A stretch of 64,000 bases of DNA from Chthonomonas calidirosea T49. GTDB lineage: Bacteria; Armatimonadota; Chthonomonadetes; Chthonomonadales; Chthonomonadaceae. The notes beneath the pieces are model-generated. The model did not search any database. It was not told the DNA's origin and saw only the letters and a program-made list of their open reading frames with translations. Positions 4,374 through 54,626 of the stretch are shown here, piece after piece. The position numbers and the translations under genes are program-made. The DNA is taken from contig NC_021487.1 in the NCBI RefSeq assembly GCF_000427095.1, positions 1,866,674 to 1,930,673 of the forward strand, written 5' to 3'. Each line of letters begins with the position of its first letter. Position 1 is the first letter of the stretch.

Positions 4374-6257
4374 TTAAGAGAGCGGGTCGTGGCGCCAATT
4401 TCCAAAACAAGCTGCAAATGCAGCTAGTAGAAGCAAAGGCACTACCTGCAAAAGCAGCCGGTCCATGCTGGTGGCGATATGCCAATGGAGATCGTGCGGT
4501 GTGATCAGATAGACACCCGAGTCGAAGGTCAGTAACAACAACCCCATCAGCCCGAAGAGCCGAGCCGTTTCTCGTACATGTCCTCCACAACAAAACAGAC
4601 CCAAGCCTATCCACACCCCCAACAGTCCCCAAGCCGGATACCAAGGGCCGAAACGCAATAGGTGGAAGATCCACTCGGAAAGGATGTAGAGCAGATGGGG
4701 CAGCGTCTGGCTCGTGGCACGCTGCAGCACGCCGGGCACAAAAAGATCGCTGGTAAGCTGCCACCTATGTTTCATCAGTGCCCAAGGCAGGTAAGCTAAC
4801 AGCAGAAAACTGAGCCATAGCGCGAGCCCTTGACGCTTTAAACGCAGCCGACCTCGTGTGCTGTAGAGAAAGGCGAGGAGCATGGCAAGAACCGCGGCCA
4901 AACCCTCGTTTTTCGTTAAGACAAGCCCTGCCAGTAACCATCCGGTAACCCAAAGCGCGCCTCGCTCTCCCCAAAGCGTTAGTGTACCCCCTACTCCTAC
5001 CGCAATGAGATAGGCTGCGAGAGGAATATCGGCAAAGCCGGAAAGCGCCATATGACTGAAAACGGGCATAGCCAGCAGAAGCGCGCAACCAACCACAGCG
5101 GGAGTGCGCCCTACAACGCGCAAGCAGAAATCGGCAAACAAGGCGAGAATGTCCATAGTGAAGAGCAGCCCTATGCCCTGCACCCACAGCTCTGAATAGC
5201 TGCCCGCATGCGCGCATGTCCACCAGGTCTGTATGGGCACCAACAGCGGATAGTCGAGATGAGCATAAAAGAAGTGATAGCTATCGTGCAAAACGCTCAA
5301 TGAGCCGCCCTGTGTTACAAAAGCTTTTGCCTTGAGCTGCCAAATAGAATAACCGTCCCAGTCAATGCCTAGCGCTAACCCCTGCCAAACCGTCACGCAA
5401 AACGCTATTCCCAGCACGCCCCATGCGATAACGGAAAGCACACGCTCCTGTGGGAAGTGAGGAAAGGCGGTCTCTCTCTGCAATACGGTGGCCTCTTGCC
5501 GGCCCCTTAAAAAGATATGGGATCCAGCCCACGAGAGCAGCACACCAGACACCAATCCCACATAGCCCTCCCAGAGCGCGAAATGCTGTGCGATGAACGC
5601 GATCGGCGAGCAACCACAGGTCAACATCGCCGCCCCCACCAGGTGCGCTACGGCAAGCTCGCCCCACCAAGTAGCCATTATCCGCGCAGGGGAGACCGCT
5701 CGAAGGGCACACCAGCCCCCTATCACCAAAACCATCAGGCTCACAAGCCCTAAGCATGCGGCGAGAGAAGCAGAGAAAAACCCAGGAGGCCTCTGCTCAT
5801 GGCGGCGAAGATTGCCATAGCTCGAAGAAACGGAGAGTGAGGCGCGTTGCGCTCGCCCAACGAGTCTCCAACCAGGTGGAAGAGGCTGGGCTTGCGCCGC
5901 CCCATAGGTAATGAGAAAAGCGAACCGTCTGTTTGCATTTTGTGGCAGGACATCCCAAAACAGATCGAAGTTCCGCGGCAAAATCAGGTAGTGCAGGCGA
6001 TAGTCGAACCAGATGGCGTTTGGGTTGCGATGCGAGAGCAACAGTGCGATGGCCGCCGGCCGCGCCCCGAAAGCTTCTATTTGGCGCGCCGCCCACTGCG
6101 CGCTCAACTCGTCCGGATTCCTTTTCCATGCTGCTTCGAGAATAGCGGTACGTCGCCAGGCGGCTAGGGTATTGACGAGGGCCACCAGTAACGAGGCGAA
6201 GAGCAACCCCGCAAGAATCTTTTCACGGCGCGCCTGTAAGGGTCTTGTTAGATGCAA
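4374..6257 (-). CDS. Polytopic membrane protein, GT-C glycosyltransferase-like
   Basis: A 627-aa protein with roughly 11-13 hydrophobic segments, the first at residues 14-32. The start is TTG 6257, with GATGAGGA 8-15 bases upstream as ribosome-binding site; no ATG exists in the first 170 codons. A large soluble N-terminal loop is followed by 'GIDWDGYSIWQLKAKA' and 'HLDYPLLVPIQTWW', the acidic-plus-aromatic loop seen in GT-C/ArnT-like enzymes that take sugars from polyprenyl carriers. The exact donor and acceptor are unknown. A role in surface glycan or protein glycosylation is inferred from topology only. It ends 73 bases upstream of the phosphoesterase gene region on the same strand. Confidence 0.7.
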   Translation of the reverse strand: MHLTRPLQARREKILAGLLFASLLVALVNTLAAWRRTAILEAAWKRNPDELSAQWAARQIEAFGARPAAIALLLSHRNPNAIWFDYRLHYLILPRNFDLFWDVLPQNANRRFAFLITYGAAQAQPLPPGWRLVGRAQRASLSVSSSYGNLRRHEQRPPGFFSASLAACLGLVSLMVLVIGGWCALRAVSPARIMATWWGELAVAHLVGAAMLTCGCSPIAFIAQHFALWEGYVGLVSGVLLSWAGSHIFLRGRQEATVLQRETAFPHFPQERVLSVIAWGVLGIAFCVTVWQGLALGIDWDGYSIWQLKAKAFVTQGGSLSVLHDSYHFFYAHLDYPLLVPIQTWWTCAHAGSYSELWVQGIGLLFTMDILALFADFCLRVVGRTPAVVGCALLLAMPVFSHMALSGFADIPLAAYLIAVGVGGTLTLWGERGALWVTGWLLAGLVLTKNEGLAAVLAMLLAFLYSTRGRLRLKRQGLALWLSFLLLAYLPWALMKHRWQLTSDLFVPGVLQRATSQTLPHLLYILSEWIFHLLRFGPWYPAWGLLGVWIGLGLFCCGGHVRETARLFGLMGLLLLTFDSGVYLITPHDLHWHIATSMDRLLLQVVPLLLLAAFAACFGNWRHDPLS

Positions 6258-16800: not shown

Positions 16801-18285
16801 CTACTCGTAGAGCGTAGGGAAAAGGCGCCGAGAGAGCGCACTCTGCAGCAAACCCTCCGGGTCGCACTCCCTTTTTAGCTTCACAAAACGGGCGATGGTC
16901 TCTTCACCGAGGTAGGCGCGCGCGGTATCAGGGTCGAGGGTGCTGTCCTTGGCAAAATAAAAGCGCCCACCCGCCTCCAGCACAAGCTGATTCAGTTGCT
17001 TGGCCAACGCCCATACCCGCGCTCGCGTGTGCGGGTACATCGGAATGTCCAGCGCCAACGAATAGCCATCTACACTGTGGGTCATGAGAAACCGATCGCG
17101 CCGATGCCGTTTAAACACCCCCAACCACGGTACGATGCCCATCTGTTGGCAAAGAGTAAGCTGGTCAGCAAAACAACGCGCGGCTTGCTCGGCAGGGATG
17201 AAGCTTTGATACTGAATAAGGCAGCCCGGTTTGTAGGCCCACTTCCAATTGGGCACATAATCTAACAAAAAGGCAAACGCCGCATGCGATTGCCGCACCC
17301 GCTTGTGGTTGCCGATGGTGTTGCCCGCCGTGAATCTAGCCCAGTTCACAAGCCGCATGCCCAGGTTGTTCGCGAAAGGCTTCATGCATCGCCACATGAC
17401 AGACTTTGGAATGATGCCCATCAACGTATCGGGCAGCTCCTGATTCTCTACCCGCAGCGTTTGCGCAGGAATGGGGTCTTCCCCAGGAGCAAGGTACCGT
17501 GCAGCATGTACCAGTCCCCGGCCTAGATGTCGCCCTGTTGCGAAGCAGTCAATCCAGCCAACAAGGTAGTCGTACGAATCCATGCGACGTTCAAACTGCT
17601 CCACGATATCCTCAAAGTTTTGAGTAGAGAAAGCATCCACCTCCAAAAGGCCACTGTAGACGCGCTTGAGCTGTAATGTTAGGCGGGTAAAGCAACCTAA
17701 CATTCCAAACCCTCCGATGGCCGCATAAAAAAGATCGGAATGCCTCTCCGAGCTACAGGTCACGATCTCGCCTGTCGGCAACAGAAGATCGAACTCTAGA
17801 ATATGCTCCCCGATGGGCCCTACCTTCCAGTTGTTTTTGCCATGGATGTTCATTGCCGCCCCGCCGCCCAGCGAAACGTACATTGTGCCGGAGACCACAG
17901 GCGGCCACCAACCGTCTCCAATGGCGTAACGCCAAATGTCGCCAATCGTCGCCCCAGGTTCCACGGTAATGCGGCCGGTGTGGGGGTTCCAATCTAAAAT
18001 GCGATTCATGCGGGTGAGGTCTAGGCAGATGTTCTCGGCCAAAAGCGCCGCATCGCCGTAGCTGCGTCCCATGCCGCGTAGGCAGACTTTACGCCCATGG
18101 CTTCGCGCCAGAGCAAACACCTCCTGAACCCCCTCTAATGTGGAAGGGCGAAAGACATAGGCTAGAGCAGCGGTGTTCATACCCCAAGCCTCGATTCGCT
18201 CCAAGCGATCGGAGGGCAAAGGCTTGATGGGCCTATCCGCCAAGCAGGAGGTTTGCGGTGCAGGAGTGGTTTCTGAAAGACTCAT
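16801..18285 (-). CDS. FAD-linked oxidoreductase, DprE1-like (decaprenylphosphoryl-ribose 2-oxidase family)
   Basis: A 494-aa FAD-binding PCMH-fold protein. Residues 70-80 (GMGRSYGDAAL), 110-116 and 139-150 (LGGGAAMNIHGK) are the flavin-binding segments; His148 in the HGKN motif and Lys446 in 'FAKDS' match the active-site His and Lys known for mycobacterial DprE1. The position of the DprE1 Cys that reacts with benzothiazinones (sequence I-C-V-D-F-P) is Ala411 here (L-A-L-D-I-P). DprE1 oxidises the C2 hydroxyl of polyprenyl-phosphoryl ribose. It lies 15 bases after the DprE2-like SDR on the same strand, which strongly supports the same two-step epimerisation. Substrate is inferred. Confidence 0.8.
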   Translation of the reverse strand: MSLSETTPAPQTSCLADRPIKPLPSDRLERIEAWGMNTAALAYVFRPSTLEGVQEVFALARSHGRKVCLRGMGRSYGDAALLAENICLDLTRMNRILDWNPHTGRITVEPGATIGDIWRYAIGDGWWPPVVSGTMYVSLGGGAAMNIHGKNNWKVGPIGEHILEFDLLLPTGEIVTCSSERHSDLFYAAIGGFGMLGCFTRLTLQLKRVYSGLLEVDAFSTQNFEDIVEQFERRMDSYDYLVGWIDCFATGRHLGRGLVHAARYLAPGEDPIPAQTLRVENQELPDTLMGIIPKSVMWRCMKPFANNLGMRLVNWARFTAGNTIGNHKRVRQSHAAFAFLLDYVPNWKWAYKPGCLIQYQSFIPAEQAARCFADQLTLCQQMGIVPWLGVFKRHRRDRFLMTHSVDGYSLALDIPMYPHTRARVWALAKQLNQLVLEAGGRFYFAKDSTLDPDTARAYLGEETIARFVKLKRECDPEGLLQSALSRRLFPTLYE

Positions 18286-18300
18286 AGTTCCTCTTCTGCC

Positions 18301-19068
18301 CTATACGTTAAGGCGTTTGAAGATGAAGGAGGGAATGAGGCGCACAATCGCCATAATCGGTCGCCAAATGCGCGGTACATAGACCACGCCATCTCGATGT
18401 GCTCCCTTTAGAATCAACTCTGCCGCCCTGTCTGCTGAGATGAGAAATGGCAAGTTCTTCAATCCCTTTACCAAAGGTGTGTCCACCGGCCCCGGCTTCA
18501 CCGTCACAACGCGCACCCCATAGCGCCCTGTGCGATTACGCAGCCCCTCTAAGTAGGTATCTAAAAAGGCCTTGGAAGCGCTGTAGACCGGAAAATGGCG
18601 ACGCCCCCGATCTCCTGCTACCGATGAGATACCTACTAAGGTTCCCGACCCAGCCCGTTCAAAGCGCTCCGCCGCCATGTCCAACCAAGCGACCGCGCCG
18701 CGCACGTTCACATCTATGGTCGCAAGGTCTTTTTCCAAACTGTACTCATGCTCTGCAAGAATGGGCATGATTCCGGCAGAATAGATGATAAGATCAAGCC
18801 CACCCAAATCGTGGGTGATCTTCTGAAAAAGCGCCGGCACGCACTCCACCTCGCACACATCATGGCGATAGAGAAGCGGTTTGGGAGCACCAGATGCCGC
18901 GATCTCTTCGGCGATCCGCTCCAACTGCTCCAAGCGCCGTGCCACCATCGCAACCAAACAGCCCTGGGATGCTAACCTCCGCGCCAGCGCCTCCCCAATT
19001 CCAGAGGAGGCTCCGATAATCAATGCATGTTGCCAGCTCTTCTGCATTCTTTGCTCCAACCATGCCAT
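18301..19068 (-). CDS. Short-chain dehydrogenase, DprE2-like
   Basis: A 255-aa Rossmann enzyme. The nucleotide-binding G-x-x-x-G-x-G is 'GASSGIG' near residue 20, and the catalytic set is complete: Ser in 'GISSVAG' and Y-S-A-S-K. The hydrophobic, basic C-terminal tail (VPRIWRPIMAIVRLIPSFIFKRL) resembles the membrane-associating tail of DprE2. DprE2 reduces the 2-keto intermediate made by DprE1 to give polyprenyl-phosphoryl arabinose. The start ATG 19068 has GAGGATAG just before it. Transcribed first, with the DprE1-like gene following after 15 bases. Confidence 0.82.
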   Translation of the reverse strand: MAWLEQRMQKSWQHALIIGASSGIGEALARRLASQGCLVAMVARRLEQLERIAEEIAASGAPKPLLYRHDVCEVECVPALFQKITHDLGGLDLIIYSAGIMPILAEHEYSLEKDLATIDVNVRGAVAWLDMAAERFERAGSGTLVGISSVAGDRGRRHFPVYSASKAFLDTYLEGLRNRTGRYGVRVVTVKPGPVDTPLVKGLKNLPFLISADRAAELILKGAHRDGVVYVPRIWRPIMAIVRLIPSFIFKRLNV

Positions 19069-42838: not shown

Positions 42839-43999
42839 TCAGCGGGAACTGCTGACTTTCGCCAGTCTGACGTTCCCTCCCTTGTCGTTTTGACTCTCCG
42901 GGCTTCCCACGGCGAGTATTCTCATGCCCTCAAGGAGCAGATTGATGGCGGCGTTGGGGTCACGGTCGTGGATCACGCCACAGCCCCCACACGTCCATTG
43001 CCTGTCCGAGAGTTCGAGATGCTGACGATGGTTACACGGGTGGCACGTTTGGGAGGATGGGAAGAACCTATCCACCTTGACGATACGACAGCGATTCCAT
43101 TCGGCTTTATAGACCAGCATCCGAACAAACGCCCCCAGGGACGCATCGGTGAAACTCTTTGCCAGTTTGGTTTTCACTAAGCCTTTGAGGTTCCAATCTT
43201 CGATGCAGAGGGTGTCGTAGCGGCTGATGAGTTTTGACGAAATCTTGTGAAGCCAGTCGTTACGCTGGTTTCTCACTCTGGCATGGTATACAGCCAGAAC
43301 CTTCTTGCGCTTGCAACGTCTGCGGCTGGTCTTCTGGCTTCTGGAAACAGCACGTTGCAGGCGTTTGAGTTTGCGCTCTGCCTTGCGGTAGAACTTCGGA
43401 GGCTTAACCTTCTCCCCGTTGTCCAGGGTGAAGAAAGACTCCAGACCGACATCTATCCCGACAGGAGCATCCCACACGGGTTCCACATCAGGCAGTTCGA
43501 TGTGGCTGATGAAGCAGACATACCAGTGTCCGTTCGGCTCCTGCTTGATGGTCGCGGATTTAATAGTTCCTTGCATCTCGCGGTGCAGACGGGCTTTCAC
43601 CAGTCCCACTTTGGGGATGGATACCCTTCCGTCCACGATGGTCACGTTCTGCGGAATACGGAAAGCGTTCGGAGTCCGCTTCCTGCTCTTGAACCGGGGA
43701 AACTTTGTCCGCTTCGCGAAGAAGGAGACGAACGCTTTGTCCAAATCCATCAAAGTCTGCTGCAACGCCTGGGAGTGGCACTCTTTGAGGAACGCGGTTT
43801 CAGGCTGTTTCTTGAGAGCCACCAGTTCGGACGCCAGGGCGTTGTAGCCGAGGGTCTTCCCCGTCTCTTTGTAGACCGCTTGCTTTCGTGCCAAGGCCCA
43901 ATTCCAAACAAAGCGACGGCAACCTGCAAAGCGCAGGAACTCTTGCTCCTGTTCGCGGGTCGGGTCGAGTCGGAACTTGTAGGTCTTGGTGGTAATCAT
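42839..43999 (-). CDS. tnpB: TnpB, RNA-guided nuclease of an IS200/IS605 element
   Basis: 386 aa from ATG 43999; the frame extends upstream to 44260 over tnpA but that part is a shadow. The RuvC-like active site is complete: Asp183 ('VGIDVGLESF'), Glu267 ('LCIEDWNLKG') and Asp347 ('HDRDPNAAINLL'). A Cys4 zinc ribbon uses Cys319, Cys322, Cys337 and Cys340. TnpB proteins, ancestors of Cas12, cut DNA as directed by an omega RNA copied from the element's right end; that RNA would here overlap the gene's 3' end and run toward 42790. It starts within 4 bases of the tnpA stop, so the two are coupled. Confidence 0.93.
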   Translation of the reverse strand: MITTKTYKFRLDPTREQEQEFLRFAGCRRFVWNWALARKQAVYKETGKTLGYNALASELVALKKQPETAFLKECHSQALQQTLMDLDKAFVSFFAKRTKFPRFKSRKRTPNAFRIPQNVTIVDGRVSIPKVGLVKARLHREMQGTIKSATIKQEPNGHWYVCFISHIELPDVEPVWDAPVGIDVGLESFFTLDNGEKVKPPKFYRKAERKLKRLQRAVSRSQKTSRRRCKRKKVLAVYHARVRNQRNDWLHKISSKLISRYDTLCIEDWNLKGLVKTKLAKSFTDASLGAFVRMLVYKAEWNRCRIVKVDRFFPSSQTCHPCNHRQHLELSDRQWTCGGCGVIHDRDPNAAINLLLEGMRILAVGSPESQNDKGGNVRLAKVSSSR

Positions 44000-44466
44000 G
44001 CAGGTTTGGACCTCTGATCCTCGATAGACATGGCGATGGTCTTGGCAGACACAGTTCCAGCGGAACCATAGTAACAGCCATCCGACCACAGACCGCTTCC
44101 CCAAAAACGTTTCTGCTTCAAGGTGGGAAAGGTCTTGAAGAGTGAGACAGCCAGGATGCTTTTCAGTGTTTTGGCGATGGTGACGGGAGCCGTTGTTGGC
44201 GGAGCCGATACAAACAGGTGAACGTGATCGGGCATCACCTCCAGAGCCAACTGCTCCCACCCATAGCGTTCACACAAAATCGGCATCTGCTCTTTGATGT
44301 GGTCTTCTATAGCCCCCGTCAGGACTTTGTTGCGATACTTAGTGACGAAGACGATGTGATAGTTGAGAGTATAGACGCTATGCGCTGTGGTCTTGGTCGG
44401 TGTCTGTATCCTCGTCCTTCGGCATGGGATAGGTGTGGACGATAGTCTCACGGATGAGGTCGGCAT
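43996..44466 (-). CDS. tnpA: TnpA, Y1 HUH transposase (IS200/IS605 type)
   Basis: Single-strand 'peel and paste' transposase. The HUH motif is 'MPDHVHLFV' around residues 78-86, and the catalytic Tyr lies in 'SDGCYYGSAG'. The frame is open from ATG 44466, giving 156 aa, but residues 1-25 (MPTSSVRLSSTPIPCRRTRIQ..) look unlike the family and lie inside the upstream RHH gene. The conserved core begins 'VYTLNYHIVFVTKYR' near residue 32. No other good start is present, so translation depends on a start within the RHH gene or on frameshifting. The 3' end overlaps tnpB by 4 bases. Confidence 0.88.
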   Translation of the reverse strand: MPTSSVRLSSTPIPCRRTRIQTPTKTTAHSVYTLNYHIVFVTKYRNKVLTGAIEDHIKEQMPILCERYGWEQLALEVMPDHVHLFVSAPPTTAPVTIAKTLKSILAVSLFKTFPTLKQKRFWGSGLWSDGCYYGSAGTVSAKTIAMSIEDQRSKPA

Positions 44467-52547: not shown

Positions 52548-54626
52548 TTGAAAACACGACTGGATCACGCGGAAACCGAGTCTGTACAAGCGATCGTTCC
52601 TTCAGCTGCACGCACACACTCCGTTCTTAACGGCCATCTTACCTCCACCATCTCTCTAGAAGCGATCCGCCAAGCCCTTCGCGGCGCCATTCACTACCTG
52701 CGTGATCGCCAACAGCCCGACGGCCACTGGGTGGCGGAACTGGAAGGCGATACGATTTTGGAAAGCGAGTATATTCTCCTGTTGCAGTTTCTAGGTAAGA
52801 ACGACCCTGAGAAGTTCCGTAAACTCGCCAACTATATCCGCAGCAAGCAGCATCCGGAGGGCTATTGGGCCATCTATCCCGGAGGGCCTCCCGAAGTCAG
52901 CGCATCGGTGAAGGCCTATTTCGCCTGCAAACTGGCTGGTTTCAGTGAAAGTGAACCGTTCATGATCCGCGCCCGCCGCGCCATCTTGTCGCTGGGCGGC
53001 GTAACACACTGCAACACCTTCACCAAGCTCTATCTCTCCATTTTTGGGCAGTACGACTGGTACGGCGTTCCCGTTATCCCTCCCGAACTCATTCTTATGC
53101 CGAAATGGTTTTACTTTAATATCTATGAGATGTCTTCGTGGTCACGAGCCATTCTTGTACCGCTATCCGTTATCAATGCGCTGCGTCCCTACCGCCCCAT
53201 ACCGGCTCACGCAACCATTGATGAGCTTTTTGTAGGCGGGAAAAGCCGCAAACGGATGCGGTTGCCCTGGGATAGTCGCCCCCTCACCTGGCGTAACGTC
53301 TTTTTGATCGTAGATAAGATTCTGAAACTCTACCATGCCAGCCCCATTAAGCCGTTCCGTAAGCTTGCGCTTCAACGCTGCTTGCAGTGGCTTTTGGAGC
53401 GCGAGGAAAACAGTGGTGGACTGGGTGCCATTTTCCCCGCGATGACCCACGCGATCATGGCCTACAAGTGTATGGGTCTACCCGATGACCACCCCGCTAT
53501 CCAAAAAGAGCTAAAGGAGCTTGCCGCTTTTGAAATTGAAGAGGGCGATACCATCCGCCTGCAGCCTTGCGTTTCACCCGTTTGGGATACGGCCATTTCG
53601 CTGAACGCCCTGCTGGATAGCGGATATCCGCCAGAAAGCGAGGAGATTCGCAAAGCCGCCGAATGGCTGCTCAGTAAGCAGACTCGCAAAAAGGGCGACT
53701 GGGCTGTAAAAGTGCGAAATGTAGAGCCAGGTGGATGGTATTTTGAAAACGAGAACGAGTTCTACCCCGATGTGGACGATACCATCATGGTGTTGATGGC
53801 TCTCTATAAAACCTACTGCCATGATGGACGCCCCTGGACAGAGGCGCCTCCCGAGGTGCGGGAGGCGATGCGTAAAGGCCTCAATTGGGTGTTTGCTATG
53901 CAGAATCGGGATGGCGGATGGGCTAGCTTCGACAAAGACAACAATCGTATTCTTTTCCAATATGTGCCCTACGCCGATCATAACGCGATGCTAGACCCCT
54001 CCTCGGCCGACATCACCGCGCGCGTTCTGGAGATGTGCTCCTACTACGGCATCGGTAAAACCGACCCAAGGGTAAAACGCGCCATCGCCTATCTCTATAA
54101 AGAACAGGAGGAGGATGGCTCCTGGTTTGGTCGCTGGGGCGTGAACTACCTTTATGGCACGTGGCAGGTGTTGCGTGGTTTGTCGCGTATTGGAGAGGAT
54201 ATGCGCTCGGAACGCATCCAGCGCGCCGTTCGCTGGCTGCACTCCGTGCAGAACGAAGACGGCGGTTGGGGGGAAAGCTGCCAAAGCTACGAACCCGGTC
54301 ACCCCAAAGCCACCGGCCCCTCCACGCCCTCCCAAACCGCTTGGGCTCTCATGGGGCTTTTTAACGCCGGCGACCTCTCAAGTTGTGCCGTCCAACGCGG
54401 TATCGAGTACCTTTTGAAAAACCAAACCGACGACGGCACCTGGTTGGAAGAGTGGTTTACCGGCACTGGTTTCCCGCGCGTCTTCTATCTGCGCTACCAC
54501 TTCTATCGGCACTACTTCCCCCTCTGGGCGTTGGCTCAGTATCATCGGTTTGTAACGGGGGAGCCGGCCTATACTCCCGAACTTGCTCAACCCTCCACCG
54601 ATCGCTTTGCTAACTTGGAGGTTTGA
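52548..54626 (+). CDS. shc: Squalene-hopene cyclase
   Basis: 692 aa, start TTG 52548 preceded by GGGGTGGTGA. Catalyses one-step cyclisation of squalene to the pentacyclic hopene, giving hopanoids that order the membrane. The protonating motif is Asp408-Val-Asp-Asp411 ('YPDVDDTIM'). Multiple QW motifs are present, for example 'RDRQQPDGHWVAELEGD', 'FAMQNRDGGWASFDKDN', 'KEQEEDGSWFGRWGVNYLYGTW' and 'LHSVQNEDGGWGESC'. The protein is a monotopic membrane enzyme. It is transcribed alone from the promoter at 52324 and followed by an aldo/keto reductase gene with its own site. Confidence 0.96.
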   Translation: MKTRLDHAETESVQAIVPSAARTHSVLNGHLTSTISLEAIRQALRGAIHYLRDRQQPDGHWVAELEGDTILESEYILLLQFLGKNDPEKFRKLANYIRSKQHPEGYWAIYPGGPPEVSASVKAYFACKLAGFSESEPFMIRARRAILSLGGVTHCNTFTKLYLSIFGQYDWYGVPVIPPELILMPKWFYFNIYEMSSWSRAILVPLSVINALRPYRPIPAHATIDELFVGGKSRKRMRLPWDSRPLTWRNVFLIVDKILKLYHASPIKPFRKLALQRCLQWLLEREENSGGLGAIFPAMTHAIMAYKCMGLPDDHPAIQKELKELAAFEIEEGDTIRLQPCVSPVWDTAISLNALLDSGYPPESEEIRKAAEWLLSKQTRKKGDWAVKVRNVEPGGWYFENENEFYPDVDDTIMVLMALYKTYCHDGRPWTEAPPEVREAMRKGLNWVFAMQNRDGGWASFDKDNNRILFQYVPYADHNAMLDPSSADITARVLEMCSYYGIGKTDPRVKRAIAYLYKEQEEDGSWFGRWGVNYLYGTWQVLRGLSRIGEDMRSERIQRAVRWLHSVQNEDGGWGESCQSYEPGHPKATGPSTPSQTAWALMGLFNAGDLSSCAVQRGIEYLLKNQTDDGTWLEEWFTGTGFPRVFYLRYHFYRHYFPLWALAQYHRFVTGEPAYTPELAQPSTDRFANLEV

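Follow-up and report, generated by a model that had tools for sequence, protein, structure and literature searches.

Results

The oxidase and reductase genes

The window analysed in this study is a stretch of 64,000 nucleotides, covering positions 1866674-1930673 of the 3.44 Mb chromosome of Chthonomonas calidirosea T49. Two genes lie side by side on its minus strand, 15 bases apart, as the original prediction had described. An SDR reductase of 255 amino acids (P0002, 18301..19068) is transcribed first, and is followed by the short gap (18286..18300), which carries a Shine-Dalgarno-like AGAGGA ahead of the oxidase start, and then by an FAD oxidase of 494 amino acids (P0001, 16801..18285).

The oxidase matched the DprE1 model NF053785 with 265.8 bits over residues 29-488, below the NCBI equivalog cut-off of 500 bits, and the next model reached 70.9 bits. 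Solved DprE1 chains in the PDB matched it over the full length (E 1e-48), while the next family matched the FAD half only (E 2.7e-14). The match to DprE1 is beyond chance. An AlphaFold2 model of the oxidase (pLDDT 89.4) gave Z 42.7-45.5 and rmsd 2.0-3.0 over 401-437 residues when aligned with 29 full-length DprE1 chains; galactonolactone dehydrogenase (Z 37.0) and alditol oxidase (Z about 34) came next. By this predicted model, DprE1 is the nearest fold of the oxidase, well above the next family.

The DprE1 catalytic and pocket residues Y60, G117, H132, K134, W230, Q334, Q336, K367, Y415, and K418 were all kept. Both sequence motifs named in the original prediction were located: HGKN at residues 148-151 (17833..17844, minus strand), which corresponds to His132 and Lys134 of Mycobacterium tuberculosis DprE1 and was invariant in 20 aligned oxidase sequences, and FAKDS at residues 444-448 (16942..16956, minus strand), which contains Lys446, the equivalent of Lys418. 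Relative to DprE1, the pocket of window-type oxidases has His in place of F369, Ser in place of N385, and mostly Gly in place of N364. Alignment to the M. tuberculosis protein also placed Ala411 (17053..17055, minus strand) at Cys387, the benzothiazinone-reactive cysteine, as had been predicted. Ala was invariant at this position in all 20 non-mycobacterial sequences of the alignment.

The best model for the reductase was the uncharacterised NF005489 (PRK07102), with 205.8 bits. The DprE2 model NF053786 matched over the full length with 134.9 bits and did not reach its cut-off of 250, and the PDB DprE2 chain 21gq_C matched residues 13-254 (E 2.9e-23). The SDR partners in proteobacterial DprE1 clusters ranked the two models in the same order, PRK07102 first and DprE2 second, and PRK07102 therefore seems to cover DprE2-like partners outside the actinobacteria.

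In nearly all aligned partner SDRs, the segment around the catalytic serine follows the pattern [SGT]S-x-A-x-[DE]-R-x-R. In P0002 it is SSVAGDRGRR (residues 148-157, 18598..18627, minus strand; catalytic Ser149) and in mycobacterial DprE2 it is SSAAGERVRR; two control SDRs were without the signature. S149, R154, R156, Y162, and K166 were invariant among the aligned partners, and Tyr-x3-Lys is present in P0002. The predicted model of the reductase (pLDDT 93.7) showed a classical SDR fold followed by two C-terminal helices, at residues 235-244 and 247-253 (18310..18366, minus strand). These align with the tail of DprE2, in agreement with the DprE2-like hydrophobic tail that the original prediction had assigned to this protein. 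In the fold search all classical SDRs tied and DprE2 was not separated from them; an SDR fold alone cannot name the substrate.

Phylogeny and gene order

A maximum-likelihood tree of 50 oxidases split into two clades with support of 100/100. Since the tree is rooted between these two clades only, the outgroup L208 being unalignable (branch length 10), we claim no evolutionary direction. Clade B contains the mycobacteria, other actinomycetes, proteobacteria, a planctomycete, a hydrogenedentote, and two other Armatimonadota families. The window oxidase falls outside this mycobacterial and proteobacterial DprE1 clade, in the sister clade A. The phylogeny made the protein a distant sister of DprE1 and did not place it among the DprE1 proteins themselves. 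Two oxidases of Ktedonobacteria (L159 and L162) lie at the base of the clade A side, outside clade A proper, and no adjacent SDR was detected at their loci.

Going by record titles, clade A spans seven phyla (Armatimonadota, Chloroflexota, Planctomycetota, Myxococcota, Sumerlaeota, Ignavibacteriota, and Acidobacteriota), although titles of MAG records are fallible, and "Klebsiella" and "Bifidobacterium" among them are almost surely wrong. A related SDR was found within 1.5 kb and on the same strand at 121 of the oxidase loci examined, a count in which some genomes appear twice. The SDR is upstream of the oxidase at 103 of these loci and downstream at 18; L087, L167, and L172 are in no tree, and every downstream locus that was placed in a tree belongs to clade B. 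Clade A is a separate, widespread branch with the SDR upstream, as opposed to the downstream SDR of the mycobacterial and proteobacterial clade.

DPPR synthase and other candidate pathway genes

The C. calidirosea genome encodes four proteins of the UbiA family, one of which is a DPPR synthase, a polyprenyl-phosphate phosphoribosyltransferase (about 192771-193745, minus strand). It scored 252.6 bits against NF008977, above the NCBI cut-off of 234, matched the solved mycobacterial enzyme (PDB 8j8j) with E 4.4e-34, and carries the DPPR synthase motif NDIFDAERDRLHPQKRHRPIASG. The ubiA-type phosphoribosyl transferase that the original prediction had proposed to look for is thus encoded on the same chromosome, 1.69 Mb from the pair. 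The other three UbiA proteins were rejected as DPPR synthases, being a heme O synthase, a MqnP-like menaquinone prenyltransferase, and a weak MenA-like protein; the gene for the last lies about 3.4 kb past the end of the window. By eye, rmlB/rmlD-type genes and a nucleotidyltransferase adjoin the DPPR synthase, and rmlD is also a neighbour of the synthase that lies beside the pair at two loci of family f14 (L076 and L077).

We also observed a single GtrA-type membrane protein in this genome, 46% identical to a GtrA from another Armatimonadota genome, where its gene adjoins that of DPPR synthase. The arabinosyltransferases that had been anticipated did not appear: neither an Emb-type enzyme (PF04602) nor a GT87 transferase was found in the genome. 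Eight GT-C candidates of the PMT_2 type are present. Within the window, a 627-residue membrane protein at 4374-6257 (minus strand) has the look of a GT-C enzyme, with no Pfam match and a weak PMT_2 score, and occurs in 5 of 31 genomes, C. calidirosea included. It was considered as a candidate transferase; its score is weak and its distribution sparse.

Among 201 Armatimonadota genomes, 80 carry the oxidase and 188 a DPPR synthase. Since the synthase is near-universal in this phylum and present in 111 of the 121 genomes without the oxidase, mere co-occurrence is uninformative there, and we rejected it as functional evidence. Gene adjacency gave a clearer result. In 16 of the 45 Armatimonadota genomes with listed coordinates for both genes, the synthase and the oxidase are no more than 1 kb apart. 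The order SDR-oxidase-DPPR synthase, with gaps of 63-81 bases between matched stretches, occurs in five genomes of the window's own family, and eleven genomes of family f14 have the order DPPR synthase-SDR-oxidase. Some further f14 genomes beyond the 45 show the adjacency as well, the total being at least 16. That these three genes recur together in two arrangements points to a functional unit, and adjacency in relatives is strong evidence of a functional link between the pair and DPPR synthase. The genes flanking the operon in relatives encode an ABC ATPase, GT4, a hydrolase, TruB, DHH, UvrB, and others; no conserved transferase or phosphatase was found among them.

The neighbour of DPPR synthase is a GtrA gene in some Armatimonadota, whereas others have a small SMR-like membrane protein together with a GT2 at that place (for example at loci L049, L053, L058, and L063; L047, L050, L051, L055, L060, and L066). 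These neighbours and the genomes that have a synthase and no oxidase suggest that bacteria throughout the Armatimonadota make and flip polyprenyl-phosphoryl ribose.

In other phyla, DPPR synthase was present in 37 of 40 genomes that carry the oxidase, 38 of the 40 belonging to clade A. An even sample of 119 Planctomycetota, in which the clades were told apart by E-value, contained the synthase in 12 of 13 clade B carriers, 7 of 15 clade A carriers, and 17 of 91 other genomes, an enrichment for clade A (7/15 vs 17/91, p 0.024). No DPPR synthase was detected in the remaining eight clade A genomes (G349, G336, G318, G352, G278, G247, G299, and G348); other UbiA genes are present in them, and the loci retrieved all lack the DPPR synthase motif. 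Incomplete MAGs may explain some of these cases, but hardly all.

Discussion

Sequence, catalytic residues, and predicted fold all confirmed the oxidase as DprE1-like. Together with the homology and conserved catalytic residues of its partner, this bears out the central claim of the original prediction, a DprE1/DprE2-like pair. The pair resembles mycobacterial DprE1/DprE2 (Rv3790/Rv3791), the two enzymes that convert lipid-linked ribose into arabinose, in the full-length homology of both proteins, the catalytic residues, the predicted fold of the oxidase, and the C-terminal tail of the reductase, and in both cases the genome also encodes a DPPR synthase. It differs in several respects: the oxidase is about 28% identical to the mycobacterial protein, belongs to the sister clade, and has Ala for Cys387 and His for Phe369; the SDR is upstream rather than downstream; and no Emb transferases were found. 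Because the curated cut-offs for both DprE1 and DprE2 were missed, we file the pair as a sister variant of DprE1/DprE2.

The occurrence of such a pair outside the actinobacteria, which had first seemed remarkable, is of a known kind, since homologues have been published and related plasmid clusters were seen here. DprE1/E2 homologues were described for Gram-negative arabinofuranose systems (Kelly et al. 2024, PMC11127046), and Azorhizobium noeC/H/O was proposed to synthesise a D-arabinose precursor on the basis of similarity to mycobacterial proteins (PMC2443382). We observed plasmid clusters of UbiA, GtrA, FAD oxidase, and SDR genes in Rhizobium, Salipiger, and Azospirillum. These clusters (cf. 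Azorhizobium noeCHOP) have the same enzyme set as the C. calidirosea genome, with a DPPR-synthase-type UbiA directly beside the DprE1/DprE2-like pair. They differ from the window pair, however, in falling on the mycobacterial side of the phylogeny, in reaching 404-411 bits against DprE1, and in having a downstream SDR.

In the three-component pentofuranose systems, a polyprenyl phosphoribose synthase and an optional epimerase feed a GT-C transferase, a flippase being the further component, and DprE1/E2 homologues were named there for Araf glycans (PMC11127046). The present case shares the synthase and these homologues, whereas its synthase is neither fused to a PRP domain nor adjacent to the pair. 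This separation agrees with the published description of the C. calidirosea genome as "disorganized", with dispersed operons (PMC4959169). Relative to the main texts of the earlier papers, our study adds a separate clade, marked by a reversed gene order and a pocket signature of its own, together with the operon of clade A with DPPR synthase in Armatimonadota.

The homology, the conserved catalytic residues, the DprE1 fold of the predicted model, the DPPR synthase gene, and the operon in relatives together indicate that the pair is probably a C2 epimerase that converts polyprenyl-phosphoryl ribose to the arabinose form. The ribose lipid would be made from PRPP by the DPPR synthase, whose gene lies near 193 kb and whose activity is assigned by homology, and a 5'-phosphatase step would then follow. 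The FAD oxidase would abstract the C2 hydride of polyprenyl-phosphoryl-beta-D-ribose, yielding a 2-keto sugar, which the SDR would reduce from the opposite face, with NAD(P)H, to polyprenyl-phosphoryl-D-arabinofuranose. The lipid-linked sugar would be moved by a flippase, for which the single GtrA protein is a possible candidate, and then placed on a surface glycan by a GT-C transferase. Of the original proposal of a polyprenyl-phosphoryl arabinose or another 2-epimerised sugar, the ribose lipid pathway is now backed by the synthase gene in this genome and beside the pair in relatives; the substrate, the C2 specificity, and the arabinose product, like the flippase and acceptor steps, are what we infer. 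The alternative by which the proposal would have failed, two proteins of unrelated clades in a genome devoid of a polyprenyl ribose pathway, is not what we found. The missed cut-offs, the pocket changes, the synthase-free Planctomycetota, and the lack of Emb and GT87 enzymes in the genome all speak against C2 epimerisation.

Other readings of these points have some claim. Clade A could be a separate enzyme class, a two-gene epimerase present in at least seven phyla whose substrate is a lipid-linked sugar different from, or additional to, polyprenyl-phosphoryl ribose; we regard this as possible, though a good deal less likely, and if true it would explain both the pocket signature of the clade and its presence in synthase-free genomes. 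Somewhat less likely still is that the enzymes use the same lipid substrate and oxidise C3, leading to a xylofuranose, or release the keto sugar for another use. The clade-specific changes F369H, N385S, and N364G and the deep, fully supported split from the mycobacterial clade favour such a change of product, and polyprenyl-phosphoryl xylofuranose systems are known. These, however, work through a single SDR epimerase (PMC11127046) and have no FAD oxidase, and the window oxidase has kept all the DprE1 catalytic residues.

We hold it equally doubtful that the clade acts on some other lipid- or nucleotide-linked sugar and that Armatimonadota recruited DPPR synthase into the operon locally. Eight of the 15 clade A Planctomycetota are without the synthase, and outside Armatimonadota the clade A pairs often have no conserved third gene; yet 37 of the 40 carriers across phyla possess a synthase, clade A is enriched for it in Planctomycetota, and several of the genomes are MAGs that may be incomplete. 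Finally, the pair could be unrelated to DprE1/DprE2, with an alditol or aldonolactone oxidase lying beside a general SDR; this reading is already disfavoured and very improbable. In its favour, the oxidase belongs to a broad fold family, in which alditol oxidase reaches Z about 34 and galactonolactone dehydrogenase Z 37, and an SDR fold by itself says nothing about the substrate. Against it, DprE1 stands clearly above these families by sequence and fold, and the pair is kept both across the seven phyla given by record titles and next to DPPR synthase in an operon.

Covalent benzothiazinones need a cysteine that is Ala in every non-mycobacterial sequence checked. The natural benzothiazinone resistance of Mycobacterium avium was attributed to the same replacement (PMC3206020). 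The expectation that such inhibitors should not act covalently here is therefore sound, but it is not special to this genome. Clade A, with its own pocket signature, represents natural variants of a validated drug target. Our literature searches returned no envelope sugar data for Armatimonadota, and the surface glycans of the phylum are little known; the pair and the near-universal DPPR synthase (188/201) predict lipid-linked pentofuranose donors across it.

Two further genes in the window were noted by eye. An ORF for a TnpB/OrfB-like transposon nuclease (42839-44260, minus strand) is apparently in frame with an unrelated N-terminal stretch. A squalene-hopene-cyclase-like gene lies at 52548-54626 (plus strand), which makes hopanoid synthesis likely.
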